Part shown: positions 7,499 through 39,001 of the stretch, one piece after another
Numbering within the stretch: position 1 is the first letter of the stretch
Layout of the letters: every line of letters starts with the position of its first letter
Assembly: GCA_003222535.1 (NCBI GenBank)
Contig: QHWJ01000246.1
Coordinates: 1-49,576 of the forward strand
Origin: Acidobacteriota bacterium
GTDB lineage: Bacteria > Acidobacteriota > Vicinamibacteria > Vicinamibacterales > CAVVIG01
Length of the DNA stretch: 49,576 nt
Reading direction: 5' to 3'
Translations under genes and position numbers: made by a program
Notes under the pieces: generated by a model
What the model saw: only the letters and a program-made list of their open reading frames with translations
The model's database searches: none
What the model was told of the DNA's origin: nothing

Positions 7499-7504
7499 TG
7501 ATTT

Positions 7505-7580
7505 GGAATTAAGAAGTCAGAATCTGGAATTCGAGCGCGCATTCCGCATTCCAAATTCCAAATTCCCAATTCCAAATTGC
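7505..7580. repeat. Inverted GGAATT / ATTCCAA short-repeat block
   Basis: Begins 6 nt after the receptor stop. GGAATT occurs on the left (7505-7510 and 7525-7530). Units of the complementary type ATTCCAA, AATTCCC and ATTCC fill 7541-7577. The block lies entirely in the spacer before the sulfatase-like gene; the open frame through it is the reason the downstream gene could be mis-started at 7503. Confidence 0.7.
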
Positions 7581-7610
7581 GATTGGACAAGCCTGGCGCC
7601 GCCCTTTTTC

Positions 7611-9680
7611 ATGCGTCCGATAGTCACACTCGCCGTGTTGGCGATCTCGTTCGGCGACACGCTCGTCCTGAGCCAGTCGACGGACGGGCTCGTCCAACGG
7701 AAGCCGAGCGTCCTGTTGATCACGCTCGACACGACCCGCGCGGATCGGATGGGGTTCCTCGGATCGACGCGCGGGCTGACGCCGGCGCTCGACGCGCTGG
7801 CGCGGACGTCGACGATCTTCACGCGGGCCTACGCGCAGGCACCGATCACGACCGTCTCGCATGCGACGATCCTCAGCGGCACGTATCCACTCTTCCATCG
7901 CGTCACCGACTTCGGGTCGCCGCTCCCGGCCACCGTGCCGTACCTGCCCGACTTGCTGCGCCGGCAGGGTTATCACACGGCCGCGTTCGTCGGCTCGCTC
8001 GTCCTGGATCCGAAGATCGGAACGGCGTCGGGCTTCGATCGCGGCTTCGACGTCTACGACGCCGGCTTCCGGATGAGAAGCCCCGGCGAGGATCGCTACC
8101 GGACGATCGAGCGGCGGGGCGACGAGGTGGCGTCGCGCGCGATCGCGTGGCTGACATCCGCCGGCCGCGAGCCCTACTTTCTGTGGGCGCATCTGTTCGA
8201 TCCGCACGATCCGTACGATCCGCCGCCGGATCTGGAACAGCGATTTCGGTCGGCGCCGTACGACGGGGAGATCGCATCGGTCGATCGGATCGTCGATCGG
8301 CTGGTGAAGGCCGCCGGCCCTGGCACGATCGTCGCCGTCGCCGCCGATCATGGGGAAGCGCTCGGCGGCCACGGCGAAGCGACGCACGGCGTGTTTCTGT
8401 ATGACGAGACGCTGCACGTTCCTCTCGTGATTCGGCTGCCCGGCGTGGGGCCCGGCTCCAGCCGGACCGCTCGACGTGTCACGACGCGGGTACGCCTCGC
8501 AGATCTTGCGCCGACGCTGCTCGATGCGGCCGGCCTCCCCCGTCCATCCGCGATGCAGGGCGAGTCGCTGATCCCCCTGGTCCGGCTGAAGCCGGACCCC
8601 ACGGGAACAACAGCTACTGGAACGACTGCGGCCGGAACGGGCGCGGTCCGGCTGGAGCCGGACACTGCCGGAACGACTGACGATCGACCGGCGTATGCCG
8701 AGACCGAATATCCGCGGCAGGCGTTCGGCTGGAGCATGCTCGCCTCGTGGCGAAGCGATCGGTTTCTTTTGGTGCGCGCACCAAGGCCCGAGTTGTACGA
8801 CGTGATCGCCGATCCGGGCGCGACGCGCAACCTCGCGGCCACTCGTCCACGCATTGTGGCCGGGCTGACCGCCGAGCTCGAGCAGTTCCTTGCTTGGTCG
8901 ACTGGGGCAGATGGGTCGCGTAGGTCAGGTGGGTCAGGTAGGTCGGGTGGGTCAGGTAGGTCGGGTGGGCCAGACAGGTCGGGTGGGGCGGGCGGGTCAG
9001 GTGGGGTGGCTGGCGCGCGCATCGATCCGGCGGTCGCCGAACGGCTGGCGTCGCTCGGGTACGTCGGCGGATCGGGGAGCACTCCGGCCGCCGGCGGAGT
9101 CGACCCCAAGGACCGCATCGCCGTCGCCAACACGCTGCACGACGCGATGATCGCCGTCGAGGACGCGCGGTTCGCGCGAGCGATTCCGTTGCTGGAGCAG
9201 GTGATTGCGCGCGAACCGGGAATTCCGATCGCCCAGCTCAACCTGGGCATCGCGCGGGCGCGGCAGAAACAGTATGCGCGGGCCGTGCCGCCGCTCACCC
9301 GAGCCGTCGCGCTGAAGACCGAAGATATGCGCGCGCATTACGAGCTCGCCTCCGCGCTGTACGAGACGGGCGATGTGACATCGGCCGCCCGCCACTTCGC
9401 GGTCGTCGCCTCGACGATGCCGGCGTGGGCCGATGCACGCTATTCGCTCGGATCCGTGTACGCGCGCATCGATCGGATCCCCGACGCGATCGCCGAGCTC
9501 CGCGCGGCCCTGGATCTCGAGCCGCGCCATTTCCGCGCGAACCTGCTGCTCGGCCGGATCCTCACGCTGCGCGGCGAGGCGCCTCTCGCAGTGCCGTACT
9601 TGAGAACGGCGGTGAATGTGCAGCCGGACTCGAGCGAGGCGAAGCAGTTCCTCGCCGAGGCCTTGAAGGACGGCAAATAG
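7611..9680 (+). CDS. Sulfatase/alkaline-phosphatase-fold protein with C-terminal TPR repeats
   Basis: 689 residues from ATG 7611, which opens a signal peptide (MRPIVTLAVLAISFGDTLVL). Earlier starts would translate a repeat block. Sulfatase core: VLLITLDTTRAD (metal Asp about 40), PITTVSHATILSGTYP (about 78-93), DHGEALGGHGEATHG. The position that holds the formylglycine Cys/Ser in true sulfatases (C-x-P-S-R) reads T-T-V-S-H, so classical sulfatase chemistry is unlikely; hydrolase activity through Thr, or loss of activity, are both possible. About residues 510-690 form TPR helices (IAQLNLGIARARQKQYARA). Two repeat insertions interrupt the protein in frame: a palindrome pair (about residues 323-352) and a Gly/Ser/Arg linker made of period-9 DNA (about 435-466). 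Confidence 0.88.
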   Translation: MRPIVTLAVLAISFGDTLVLSQSTDGLVQRKPSVLLITLDTTRADRMGFLGSTRGLTPALDALARTSTIFTRAYAQAPITTVSHATILSGTYPLFHRVTDFGSPLPATVPYLPDLLRRQGYHTAAFVGSLVLDPKIGTASGFDRGFDVYDAGFRMRSPGEDRYRTIERRGDEVASRAIAWLTSAGREPYFLWAHLFDPHDPYDPPPDLEQRFRSAPYDGEIASVDRIVDRLVKAAGPGTIVAVAADHGEALGGHGEATHGVFLYDETLHVPLVIRLPGVGPGSSRTARRVTTRVRLADLAPTLLDAAGLPRPSAMQGESLIPLVRLKPDPTGTTATGTTAAGTGAVRLEPDTAGTTDDRPAYAETEYPRQAFGWSMLASWRSDRFLLVRAPRPELYDVIADPGATRNLAATRPRIVAGLTAELEQFLAWSTGADGSRRSGGSGRSGGSGRSGGPDRSGGAGGSGGVAGARIDPAVAERLASLGYVGGSGSTPAAGGVDPKDRIAVANTLHDAMIAVEDARFARAIPLLEQVIAREPGIPIAQLNLGIARARQKQYARAVPPLTRAVALKTEDMRAHYELASALYETGDVTSAARHFAVVASTMPAWADARYSLGSVYARIDRIPDAIAELRAALDLEPRHFRANLLLGRILTLRGEAPLAVPYLRTAVNVQPDSSEAKQFLAEALKDGK
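8579..8663. repeat. Two palindromes of the CT-nn-AG family inside the sulfatase-like gene
   Basis: First palindrome 8579-8598: arms GGTCCGGCT and AGCCGGACC around GA. Second 8646-8663: arms GTCCGGCT and AGCCGGAC around GG. They are joined by degenerate GGAAC-type units and read in frame as VRLKPDPTG and VRLEPDTAG. The arms equal those at 30167-30184 and 33452-33469. Confidence 0.9.
8912..9008 (+). repeat. Period-9 array within coding sequence
   Basis: About ten degenerate GGTCAGGTA / GGTCGGGTG units inside the sulfatase-like gene. Nine bases are three codons, so the frame is kept and the product is a Gly/Ser/Arg linker (SGGSGRSGGSGRSGG) between the sulfatase-fold domain and the TPR domain. 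It is the only coding copy among the five period-9 arrays. Confidence 0.92.
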
Positions 9681-35907: not shown

Positions 35908-36327
35908 GTGGCCCTCTACCATCATATCGACCTCCGCGTGCGGTGGTCCGACACCGATCCGGCGGGCATCGTGTGGTTCGGTGTCTTCTTCCGCTACTTC
36001 GAGCACGCCGAAGAGGAGCTGTACCGGCGGCTCGGCAGCGATCGAACGACGCTGCTGCGCGGGCTGAACATCTTCATGCCGCGGACGTCGCTCCAGACGC
36101 GATTTCGATCGCCCGCGAAGCTTGGCGACGAGCTGTCGGTCGGCGTCGGTGTCGGACGGATCACGGAACGCCGGATCGGCTTCGCGTTCGACATTCACGA
36201 GCGCGTCACCGATCGTCTGATCTGCGAGGCTTCGTACCGAGTGGCGTGCGTCGACGCGAGCACGTTCGCGCCACAACCGTTCCCGCGAGAAGTTGTCTCG
36301 CTGCTGGCGCCGGCGGTCCTCACGTGA
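35908..36327 (+). CDS. 4-hydroxybenzoyl-CoA-type thioesterase (hotdog fold)
   Basis: 139 residues, GTG start. RWSDTDPAGIVWFGVFFRYFEHAEEE has the catalytic Asp and the long helix of the 4HBT family. It hydrolyses acyl- or aroyl-CoA thioesters. Placed before a benzoate-CoA-ligase-like gene and the box genes, it may release aromatic acids from stalled CoA thioesters, as box clusters in other bacteria also carry such enzymes. The ligase gene follows after an array of about 115 bp. Confidence 0.88.
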   Translation: MALYHHIDLRVRWSDTDPAGIVWFGVFFRYFEHAEEELYRRLGSDRTTLLRGLNIFMPRTSLQTRFRSPAKLGDELSVGVGVGRITERRIGFAFDIHERVTDRLICEASYRVACVDASTFAPQPFPREVVSLLAPAVLT

Positions 36328-36336
36328 CGATGTACG

Positions 36337-36452
36337 GACCAGGGACCGAGGACGGATCAGGGACCGAGGACGGACCAAGGACCAGGGACCGAGGACGGAC
36401 CGGGGACCAGGGACGGACCAAGCACCAAGCACCAAGCACCAAGGACCGAAGA
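36337..36452 (+). repeat. GGACCAGGGAC / CACCAAG array
   Basis: Units of GGACCAGGGACCGAGGAC type with variations, ending in a run of CACCAAG (4 copies). The array reaches to within a few bases of the ligase start codon. The same vocabulary (GGACCAGGGAC, CACCAGG) appears at 44090-44155. Confidence 0.9.
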
Positions 36453-38215
36453 TGACCAGCACCGCCGTGACCGCGGAAGCGCTCGGTATCCCCGAGACGT
36501 TCAACGTCGCGACCCATTTCGTCGACCGCAACGTCGAGGAAGGGCGCGGCGCGCACGTCGCGATCGAATGCGGCGACGCCCGTGTCACCTACGACGAGGT
36601 GCTGCGAAGCGTGAATCGGTTCGGCAGTGCGCTGCGCGCTATCGACGTCCGGCCCGAGGAGCGCGTCCTGCTGCTTCTCCTCGACGGCCCCGATTTCGTC
36701 TACAGCTTCTTCGGCGCGATCAAGGCGGGCGCGGTGCCGATTCCGCTGAACACGTTGTGGAAGCCGGCCGACTATCAGCACGTCATTCACGATTCGCGTG
36801 CGCGTGTGTTGATCGTGAGCGCCACGCTTCTGCCCGAGATCGAGAAGATTCCCACCGGCGAGCGGCGCTCGCTTCGCCACATCTATGTGGTGGGCAGCGC
36901 CGAGTCGACCGGCACGCACACCGGGTTCGACCGGTTGCTGGCCGAGGGATCCCCCGATCTGGAAGCCGAGCCGACCAGCCGGGATGCGCCGGCCTTCTGG
37001 CTGTACTCCTCGGGCAGCACCGGCGCGCCCAAGGGCTGCGTCCACCTGCACCACGACATGGTCGTCTGCGCCGAGCTGTTCGGAAAGGGCGTGCTCGGCA
37101 TCCGCGCGTCCGACCGGTGCTTCAGCGTGGCCAAGCTGTTCTTCGCCTACGGCCTCGGCAACGGGTTGTACTTTCCGTTCGCGGTTGGCGGAACCACGGT
37201 CCTGTGGCCGGGGCCGCCGACGCCGCAGCACGTCTATGCGGTGATCGAGAAGCACCGGCCGACGTTGTTCTTCTCGGTACCGACCGGGTACGGAATGTTG
37301 CTCGCGCATCGCAGGCCTGAAGAGCCTGCGAACAATTCGCGCACACGCAGTGTCCAGCTTCCGCCTTCGCGTGAAGCTTCGGCGGACCGGCATAGCCTAG
37401 GCGACGGCGGTCCGCCGGACCCGACAGGTCCGCCTGAAGGCGGACACGACGGCGATCATAGGGCGGACCTTCAGGTCTGCGATTTCGATCTTTCCAGCGT
37501 TCGCCTCGCGGTCTCGGCGGGCGAGGCGCTTCCGCCCTCGCTGTACGAGCGTTTCAAACAGCGCTTCGGCGTGGACATCATCGACGGGATCGGTTCCACC
37601 GAAGTCCTGCACATGTTCATCTCGAACCGGCCCGACGCGATTCGTCCCGGCTCGAGCGGTCTGCTGGTCCGAGGCTATGAAGCACGCCTGCTGGACGAGA
37701 GCGGCGCCGCAACGCCGCAGGGCGAAATAGGCAACCTCTGGATCAACGGCGATTCGGTCTGCGCGGGCTACTGGAACCAGCACGAGAAGACGAAGGCCAC
37801 GATCGAAGGCCACTGGATTCGCACGGGCGACAAGTACACGCAGGATCAGGACGGCTTCTACTGGTATGCCGGCCGGTCCGACGACATGCTGAAGGTCGGT
37901 GGGTTGTGGGTCAGTCCCGTCGAAGTCGAAAACGCGCTGGTGGGACATCCGTCGGTGCTCGAATGCGGCGTCGTTGGCCGCGAGGATCACGATGGCCTCG
38001 TCAAGCCGATGGCCTTCGTCGTCCTGCGAGAGGGTGTTGGGAGCCCGGCCGAGCTGGGCCACATACTGCAGCAGTTCGTGCGCGAGCGGCTGGCCGAGTA
38101 CAAGCGGCCGCGATGGGTCGAATTCCTGCCTGAGCTGCCGAAGACCGCGACCGGAAAGATCCAGCGGTTCCGCCTGCGCGAGCTGGCCAACAAATCGAAA
38201 CCGGCGTCCGTCTAA
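36452..38215 (+). CDS. Benzoate-CoA-ligase-like AMP-forming ligase with repeat-derived insert
   Basis: 587 residues from ATG 36452, about 50-60 more than usual for the family. AMP-binding motif YSSGSTGAPKGCVHLHHDM, then SVAKLFFAYGLGNGLYFPF (typical of benzoate-CoA ligases), the acid motif DGIGSTEVLHMFIS, RTGDKY, and the catalytic Lys in ATGKIQRFRLREL. It would convert benzoate or a relative to the CoA thioester. Residues about 288-345, between LLAHRR and FDLSSVRLAVSAGEALPPSL, have no counterpart in the fold and are encoded by a cluster of palindromes of the repeat family, all in frame. Whether the enzyme stays active is untested. It converges on the TetR gene. Confidence 0.9.
   Translation: MTSTAVTAEALGIPETFNVATHFVDRNVEEGRGAHVAIECGDARVTYDEVLRSVNRFGSALRAIDVRPEERVLLLLLDGPDFVYSFFGAIKAGAVPIPLNTLWKPADYQHVIHDSRARVLIVSATLLPEIEKIPTGERRSLRHIYVVGSAESTGTHTGFDRLLAEGSPDLEAEPTSRDAPAFWLYSSGSTGAPKGCVHLHHDMVVCAELFGKGVLGIRASDRCFSVAKLFFAYGLGNGLYFPFAVGGTTVLWPGPPTPQHVYAVIEKHRPTLFFSVPTGYGMLLAHRRPEEPANNSRTRSVQLPPSREASADRHSLGDGGPPDPTGPPEGGHDGDHRADLQVCDFDLSSVRLAVSAGEALPPSLYERFKQRFGVDIIDGIGSTEVLHMFISNRPDAIRPGSSGLLVRGYEARLLDESGAATPQGEIGNLWINGDSVCAGYWNQHEKTKATIEGHWIRTGDKYTQDQDGFYWYAGRSDDMLKVGGLWVSPVEVENALVGHPSVLECGVVGREDHDGLVKPMAFVVLREGVGSPAELGHILQQFVRERLAEYKRPRWVEFLPELPKTATGKIQRFRLRELANKSKPASV
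37311..37480. repeat. Cluster of CT-nn-AG palindromes inserted in the ligase gene
   Basis: Three or four elements. 37311-37329: GCAGGCCT, GA, AGAGCCTGC. 37428-37445: arms GTCCGCCT and AGGCGGAC around GA. 37463-37480: arms GCGGACCT and AGGTCTGC around TC, with one G-T pair. Near 37364-37391 there is also an inverted CTTCCGCC / GGCGGACC region. Total about 170 bp, a multiple of three as judged by the preserved frame. Confidence 0.88.
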
Positions 38216-38237
38216 TGCCGGCGCGTCGTGATCTGCC

Positions 38238-38351
38238 GCCGCTCGGCTAAAGCCTTCGCGCTACGCTGACGTGGTACTTCGCGCTCCACGGGGCGGTACT
38301 TCGCGCTCCACTGAGGTCGTCGTAGTAGCGCGAAGGCTCTAGCCGAGCGGC
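38238..38351. repeat. Long inverted repeat between ligase and TetR genes
   Basis: Left arm 38238-38264 and right arm 38325-38351 (27 nt each) are complementary at 26 positions. The 60-nt loop contains two copies of GGTACTTCGCGCTCCAC (38273-38289 and 38295-38311). The right arm encodes the last residues and the TAG stop of TetR. Located at a convergent junction, it could terminate both transcripts. Confidence 0.93.
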
Positions 38352-39001
38352 GAGCGCTTCAACCCGGCGACGAAGAAGTCGGCGAAGAGATCGGCGATCG
38401 TCTGCGAAGTCGCTGCTCCCGCCGGATTGAACCACCGCGGGATCCAGTTCACCGCGCCGAACAGCGCGAACGCCAGCAGCTTTGAATCGCCGGCGGCGAA
38501 GACGCCGGTTGCCATCCCTTCCTCGAGCACGAGCCGAACGGCGTGGTCGAACTGGTCGCGCCGCACGATCACCGCCTCGAGGTGCGCGGGCGACAGCGCC
38601 TCGAGCTCCAGGATCAGCGCCGTGCCGTGCAGATCGTCGAGAATCGTGTGCACGAAGGCGACGATCAGCCGCCGGAGCTTCTCGTCGGCGGCGATGCCGC
38701 TGCGCTCCACTTCGTCGAGCAGCCGCATCAGCTGATCGAGCGAGTACTGGTGGCAGGCAAAGAGGATCTCCTCCTTGTTCTTGAAGTAGTAGTACAGGTT
38801 GCCTTTCTTCATGTGCAGCGCCGCCGCGATCTGTTCGACCGTGGCGCCGTGGTAGCCCAGCCGGCGGAACGCCTTCGCGGCGCTTTTGAGGATGTCGACG
38901 CGGGTCGACGCGAGCGCGTCGGCGTTTCGCGGCCGCTTCGGTCGCCGCGGGCCCTTCAAGCTCGGCGGTCGCGCCGCCGGTATTGACTCGCTGCTCGCCA
39001 C
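38339..39001 (-). CDS. TetR-family regulator, probable regulator of the box genes
   Basis: 220 residues from the GTG ending at 39001. An upstream TTG at 39037 is in frame but would start inside the operator, so I prefer the GTG. N-terminal HTH at about 35-80: RVDILKSAAKAFRRLGYHG, then ATVEQIAAALHMKKGNLYYY and FKNKEEIL. The ligand domain is FadR/AcrR-like and would probably bind an acyl- or aroyl-CoA. It diverges from boxC; a perfect inverted repeat lies between the starts. Proteobacterial box clusters use BoxR (XRE/shikimate-kinase type) instead, so a TetR here is a different solution. The last codons (SPLG) and the stop are part of a repeat arm. Confidence 0.88.
   Translation of the reverse strand: MASSESIPAARPPSLKGPRRPKRPRNADALASTRVDILKSAAKAFRRLGYHGATVEQIAAALHMKKGNLYYYFKNKEEILFACHQYSLDQLMRLLDEVERSGIAADEKLRRLIVAFVHTILDDLHGTALILELEALSPAHLEAVIVRRDQFDHAVRLVLEEGMATGVFAAGDSKLLAFALFGAVNWIPRWFNPAGAATSQTIADLFADFFVAGLKRSPLG

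Follow-up and report, generated by a model that had tools for sequence, protein, structure and literature searches.

A probable nest of REP-type mobile palindromes within the coding sequence of a benzoate-CoA ligase family gene of an Acidobacteriota bacterium

Introduction

The stretch of DNA analysed here (the window; 49,576 nucleotides of contig QHWJ01000246.1 of an Acidobacteriota bacterium) includes a gene of the benzoate-CoA ligase family whose middle is interrupted by a cluster of palindromes that leaves the reading frame open. The locus raises the question of what this palindromic DNA is, how it came to lie within the coding sequence of an enzyme, and what became of the enzyme.

Several known systems bear on this question. 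Passages of Di Nocera et al. 2013 (PMC3733652) describe dispersed palindromes with a GTAG end that are often paired or clustered and are chiefly intergenic. Intragenic REPs are described there in many species, some of them in frame, with clusters that code for 43-82 residues and with targets that include repair/excinuclease genes (e.g., uvrA and uvrB). The same passages record that recB of two Xanthomonas species carries different REPs at roughly one position, and argue that insertions in loops may be neutral. REPINs, as presented in parts of Bertels and Rainey 2011 (PMC3116915) and Nunvar et al. 2010 (PMC2817692), are inverted REP pairs with a spacer, and a Y1/HUH transposase gene is found between inverted REPs. 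The Rickettsia palindromic elements (RPE) are in-frame palindromic repeats within unrelated genes, in the summary given in a passage of PMC3733652. A literature search on Rickettsia elements and Vicinamibacter returned nothing further.

Results

The gene and the features of its insert were located in the window as follows.

36452-38215, forward strand: benzoate-CoA ligase family gene of 587 aa, with an ATG start, a stop codon at 38213-38215 and the lengthened loop at residues 287-345.
37311-37480, forward strand: entire insert, which keeps the reading frame and is presumably translated, missing in short-loop orthologues and predicted at pLDDT <50 over residues 291-342.
37309-37331, forward strand: left palindrome, TCGCAGG-CCTGAAGAG-CCTGCGA, putatively one half of an older outer insertion; a similar GCAGGCCTGGAGGCCTGC is present at the same position in G020.
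37346-37450, forward strand: composite REP, putatively of the GTAG type, the nested inner element, with copies of 91-94% identity elsewhere in the genome and a degenerate tag, GCAG, at 37347-37350.
37356-37417, forward strand: conserved core of the REP element, ~55-60 nt, with a mean column identity of 83% in a 30-copy alignment.
37428-37445, forward strand: REP unit GTCCGCCTGAAGGCGGAC, which the window contains 6 times, this site included, compared to 0.58 expected.
37463-37480, forward strand: right palindrome GCGGACCTTCAGGTCTGC, putatively the other half of the outer insertion, common to G005 and G020 at the orthologous position.

By profile search, the ligase was found to score 621.5 bits against TIGR02262, above the curated cut-off of 375.25, and both the AMP-binding (PF00501) and the C-terminal (PF13193) domains were detected. 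The likeness to the family (TIGR02262; 4eat, 2v7b, 4wv3) covers the entire enzyme outside the insert, with the family motifs invariant. The difference from the family is confined to one loop, which is ~55 residues longer in the window enzyme and is the sole long addition to the ligase. Alignment to the solved homologues 4wv3, 2v7b and 4eat was broken in two at this site, ending at about residue 285 and picking up again at about residues 344-349. Compared to the orthologue of G005, dN (~0.13) is well below dS (~0.87), with the two halves of the gene concordant and with dS so near saturation that the direction alone is trustworthy; this comparison indicates that purifying selection acts on the ligase outside the insert. 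When the protein was modelled with AlphaFold from 29 sequences, a confident ligase fold was obtained (mean pLDDT 85.5) in which the lengthened loop connects helix 277-285 to strand 352-355, and residues 291-342 had a pLDDT <50 and were devoid of secondary structure. Judging from this disorder and the tolerance of the insert, the loop probably lies at the protein surface. The original prediction had placed a palindrome cluster at 37311-37480, in frame in a benzoate-CoA-ligase-like enzyme, and its sequence, coordinates and frame were correct; its proposal that the insert is tolerated in an otherwise intact enzyme agrees with the invariant motifs, the purifying selection and the confident fold, and the structural model that it had suggested as a check returned that fold with the insert disordered.

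The ligase gene is bordered by other repeats. Directly 3' of its stop codon lies a large inverted repeat of a different palindrome family (38237-38352; 35-nt arms, 89% complementary, 46 nt between arms), and immediately 5' of its start, at 36320-36450, are short tandem-like repeats (GGACCAGGGACCGAGGACGG...) that may influence the translation start site.

The ends of the insert, 37311 and 37480, match the outer palindrome (GCAGGCCTGAAG ... CTTCAGGTCTGC), and the outer arms, at 37308-37322 and 37469-37483, are inverted. Perfect short inverted repeats account for 62 of the 186 bases of the variable segment, compared to a mean of 9.7 after shuffling (0/300 shuffles). As RNA, the 176 nt from 37308 to 37483 were predicted to fold at -98.3 kcal/mol, compared to -69.4 kcal/mol for dinucleotide shuffles (z -6.8; 0/200 shuffles as stable). 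No target-site duplication of the kind that accompanies a MITE was identified at the insert when it was compared by eye to the loops of the orthologues.

A search of its own genome with the insert DNA gave 72 matches. Among the other copies, the longest spans 105 bases at 91% identity, several match over 85-105 bases at 91-94% identity, and the inner REP is ~6-9% diverged from its nearest genome copies. The pattern GTCCGGCTNNAGCCGGAC, which is near-identical to the REP unit, occurs at 187 genome sites compared to 2 for the reversed control pattern, and GCAGGCCTNNAGGCCTGC of the left palindrome occurs at 28 sites compared to 8 for its control. The element was detected in 28 of 60 genomes of the order. 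An alignment of 30 copies revealed a common core of ~55-60 bases flanked by palindromic arms that vary from copy to copy (GTCCGGCT, GGCGACCCT, GCAGGCCT, GGGACGGTCT and others). These arms stay complementary, with a mean perfect arm of 6.7 compared to 5.8 after re-pairing of the left and right flanks (0/500), a result that is to be read as support and not as a probability, as related copies are counted several times. By eye, and uncounted against chance, GTAG was seen adjoining the left arm of many copies (e.g., L002, L004-L006, L010, L011, L013, L015-L017, L020 and L022); in the window copy this tag is degenerate. Based on these comparisons, the middle of the insert is identified as a dispersed repeat, a REP element putatively of the GTAG type. 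In copies L010, L011, L013, L015 and L022, the same core is found within palindromes of differing sequence, as if it had been inserted in the hairpin loops of several REP families.

The placement of the copies was judged by a simple codon-usage score only, trained on the window. By this measure, 4 of the 30 top-scoring matches (window included) lie within an open reading frame with a coding score on either side of the match, and most of the others are intergenic or at a gene end. The four intragenic copies are in the window ligase, a UvrC, a sulfatase-TPR protein and a coiled-coil-like protein; besides the ligase, the UvrC and the sulfatase have recognised domains, with the REP in frame. The core copies in these genes have a common reading frame, two per strand, although the comparison extends to four copies only. 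A second gene of the window (7503-9680, forward strand), coding for a sulfatase-TPR protein, carries an in-frame REP pair at 8580 and 8646 (8580-8663; residues VRLKPDPTGTT...VRLEPD); its orthologue in G005 is without the REP-coded residues. In the UvrC (L018, 50-2125, forward strand; G000:C204), a ~90-residue insert of several repeats (STGSGRAEASA..., SAKAPAVRRSFSEGGSAEGAKAG) lies between RKFRIRG and DDFAAMHEVV.

The genome also encodes a candidate for the mobilizing enzyme. An open reading frame at L053 (1390-1929, reverse strand; 180 aa) matched the Y1 transposase family PF01797 at 45.8 bits, the sole PF01797 match in the genome, and has inverted REPs on either side (L053 1325, 1370 and 1945). 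These REPs have the arm GTCCGGCT, which is also the arm of the subfamily closest to the inner element. Because the Y1 gene is flanked by inverted REPs with this arm, the genome fits the RAYT-REP pairing, and the likeness of the flanking palindromes suggests that the L053 protein may have moved the inner element.

The loop was compared among relatives; nine genomes of the family have the ligase gene, with one genome sampled from the window's genus. A scan of named genomes returned more distant relatives only, at 67% identity or less. From LLAH to DLSS, the window enzyme has 59 residues compared to 4 in three insert-free orthologues, those of G010 (same family), G037 and G050 (other families of the order), which bears out the original prediction that the segment is an addition. 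Measured from the 'PT' motif to 'SAGE', the distance is 79 residues in the window, whereas among 77 more distant relatives the median is 27 and no distance exceeds 38. Family members with lengthened loops have 9-59 residues between LLAH and DLSS, and their inserts differ. The loop of G016 is a dimer of palindromes unrelated to those of the window, which is its own genome's dispersed REP (46 matches) and in which GTAG is visible by eye. In G026, which belongs to the genus of G016, the loop holds a different imperfect palindrome with weak copies elsewhere in the genome, and this insert is probably tied to a repeat family; that of G014, with 3 matches in its own genome, itself included, is likewise probably repeat-derived. 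In G009 and G017, the loops are of 9-11 residues and have no visible palindrome. By sequence comparison, the window insert is shown to be built of its own genome's dispersed palindromic repeats, to extend a single ligase loop in frame, and to occupy a site that is empty or otherwise filled in the orthologues. Neither the dispersed repeat family nor the other palindromes in the same loop of relatives had been noticed in the original prediction.

The relatives also provide an order of events. Palindromes like the outer pair of the window are present in the loop of G020, and the loop of G005 retains the right end alone, with an exact match to the window across 20 bases, 6 of them from the native gene; the loop of G005 suggests that such inserts erode too. 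Because the right-hand end is common to the window, G005 and G020 at the orthologous position, the outer palindrome appears to predate the split of the window's genus from the genus of G005 and G020. The inner REP was found at this loop in the window genome alone among those sampled, and probably came later than the outer palindrome; its distribution would reflect either a later gain in the window's lineage or a loss in the other genera. The earlier suggestion that the insertion is recent does not hold for the outer palindrome and fits the inner REP in part, given its confinement to this genome as sampled and its divergence of ~6-9% from other copies.

Taken together, these results indicate that the insert is very probably a nest of REP-type mobile palindromes within a coding gene. 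A different account, that the added residues form a functional addition (e.g., a binding or regulatory linker) retained by selection on protein sequence, is unlikely: exactly this loop is lengthened in several genera, a possible sign that a longer loop is useful, but the inserts are not alike in sequence, length or repeat family, not even those of G016 and G026, which belong to one genus, the insert of the window is predicted to be unstructured, and the same repeat is chiefly intergenic. The close relatives have short, eroded or differently filled loops at the insert site, and not the well-conserved domain that the original prediction had named as evidence against an insertion. It is very improbable that the insert is spliced out of the mRNA or bypassed by ribosomes to leave an enzyme of normal length. 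Strong hairpins of the RNA strand could in principle aid bypassing, but a search of the insert region against Rfam (E up to 1) matched no family, and every lengthened loop in the family keeps the frame and is stop-free in the frame used, which would be needless if these loops were removed; in the window, this frame is the one of the three forward frames that is stop-free, the other two having stops. That the gene is a decaying pseudogene in which the insert has merely not yet been removed is scarcely credible, for although a 55-residue palindromic insert is unusual in the enzyme's large domain, the frame is open over 587 codons, the family motifs are retained, both halves are under purifying selection and the fold is confident. 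On this counter-evidence, the readings of the insert as a conserved domain, as an intron or bypassed segment and as part of a pseudogene were rejected.

Discussion

On the reading of the insert as nested REP-type palindromes, its origin may be pictured as follows. An ancestor of several genera would have acquired a GCAGGCCTGAAG-type palindrome in the loop that joins helix 277-285 to strand 352-355, and a GTAG-type composite REP would then have entered this outer palindrome in the window's lineage, probably moving as single-stranded DNA by way of a RAYT (Y1/HUH) transposase. Insertions that disrupted the frame or fold would have been eliminated, and those that survive would do so where the repeat is free of stops in the frame used and the loop accommodates what is added. 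The added residues, presumably translated given the open frame, would form a disordered linker of no needed function.

The window insert is a new example of an already known phenomenon, that of intragenic REPs. It has in common with the GTAG-tagged REPs described in passages of PMC3733652 that the repeats are short dispersed palindromes, often paired or clustered, mostly intergenic and sometimes in frame, with a GTAG end visible by eye in many copies. Further parallels are a repair gene among the targets, clusters that code for tens of residues, and different REPs at one site of a gene in different hosts. It differs from what those passages describe in its repeat sequence, with a constant core in changing palindromic arms, in its target, a CoA ligase, in its host group, which is absent from those passages, and in the filling of one loop by unrelated repeats in several genera. 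Inverted REP pairs and a Y1/HUH gene flanked by inverted REPs are also features of the REPIN/RAYT systems in the parts of PMC3116915 and PMC2817692 cited above; the REPINs are extragenic there, whereas one copy of the present repeat lies in coding sequence, with the RAYT link drawn by likeness. The RPEs, as summarised in PMC3733652, resemble the window insert in being in-frame palindromic inserts missing from orthologues, with translation presumed for the window; the resemblance is one of description, made apart from any claim of RPE membership. They come from a different bacterial group, and RPE-1 is a single longer element, whereas the window insert consists of several short ones nested together.

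To this phenomenon, the present case adds a constant core in changing arms, a well-resolved set of sites that are either empty or filled and, of most interest, a single loop that has been used repeatedly in different genera. We tentatively suggest, as a possibility somewhat short of probable, that this loop is a standing landing site, entered on several independent occasions by unrelated REP families within one bacterial family, and that the mobile core nests in the hairpins of other REPs, such that coding loops grow palindrome into palindrome. The locus, with its empty and differently filled orthologous sites, offers a clean example, from a little-studied group of bacteria, of a metabolic enzyme that gained protein sequence from mobile palindromes, and explains low-complexity inserts that might otherwise be taken for new domains in such genomes. 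It makes testable how non-coding repeats survive in genes, and whether loops are filtered by tolerance alone or are preferred targets.
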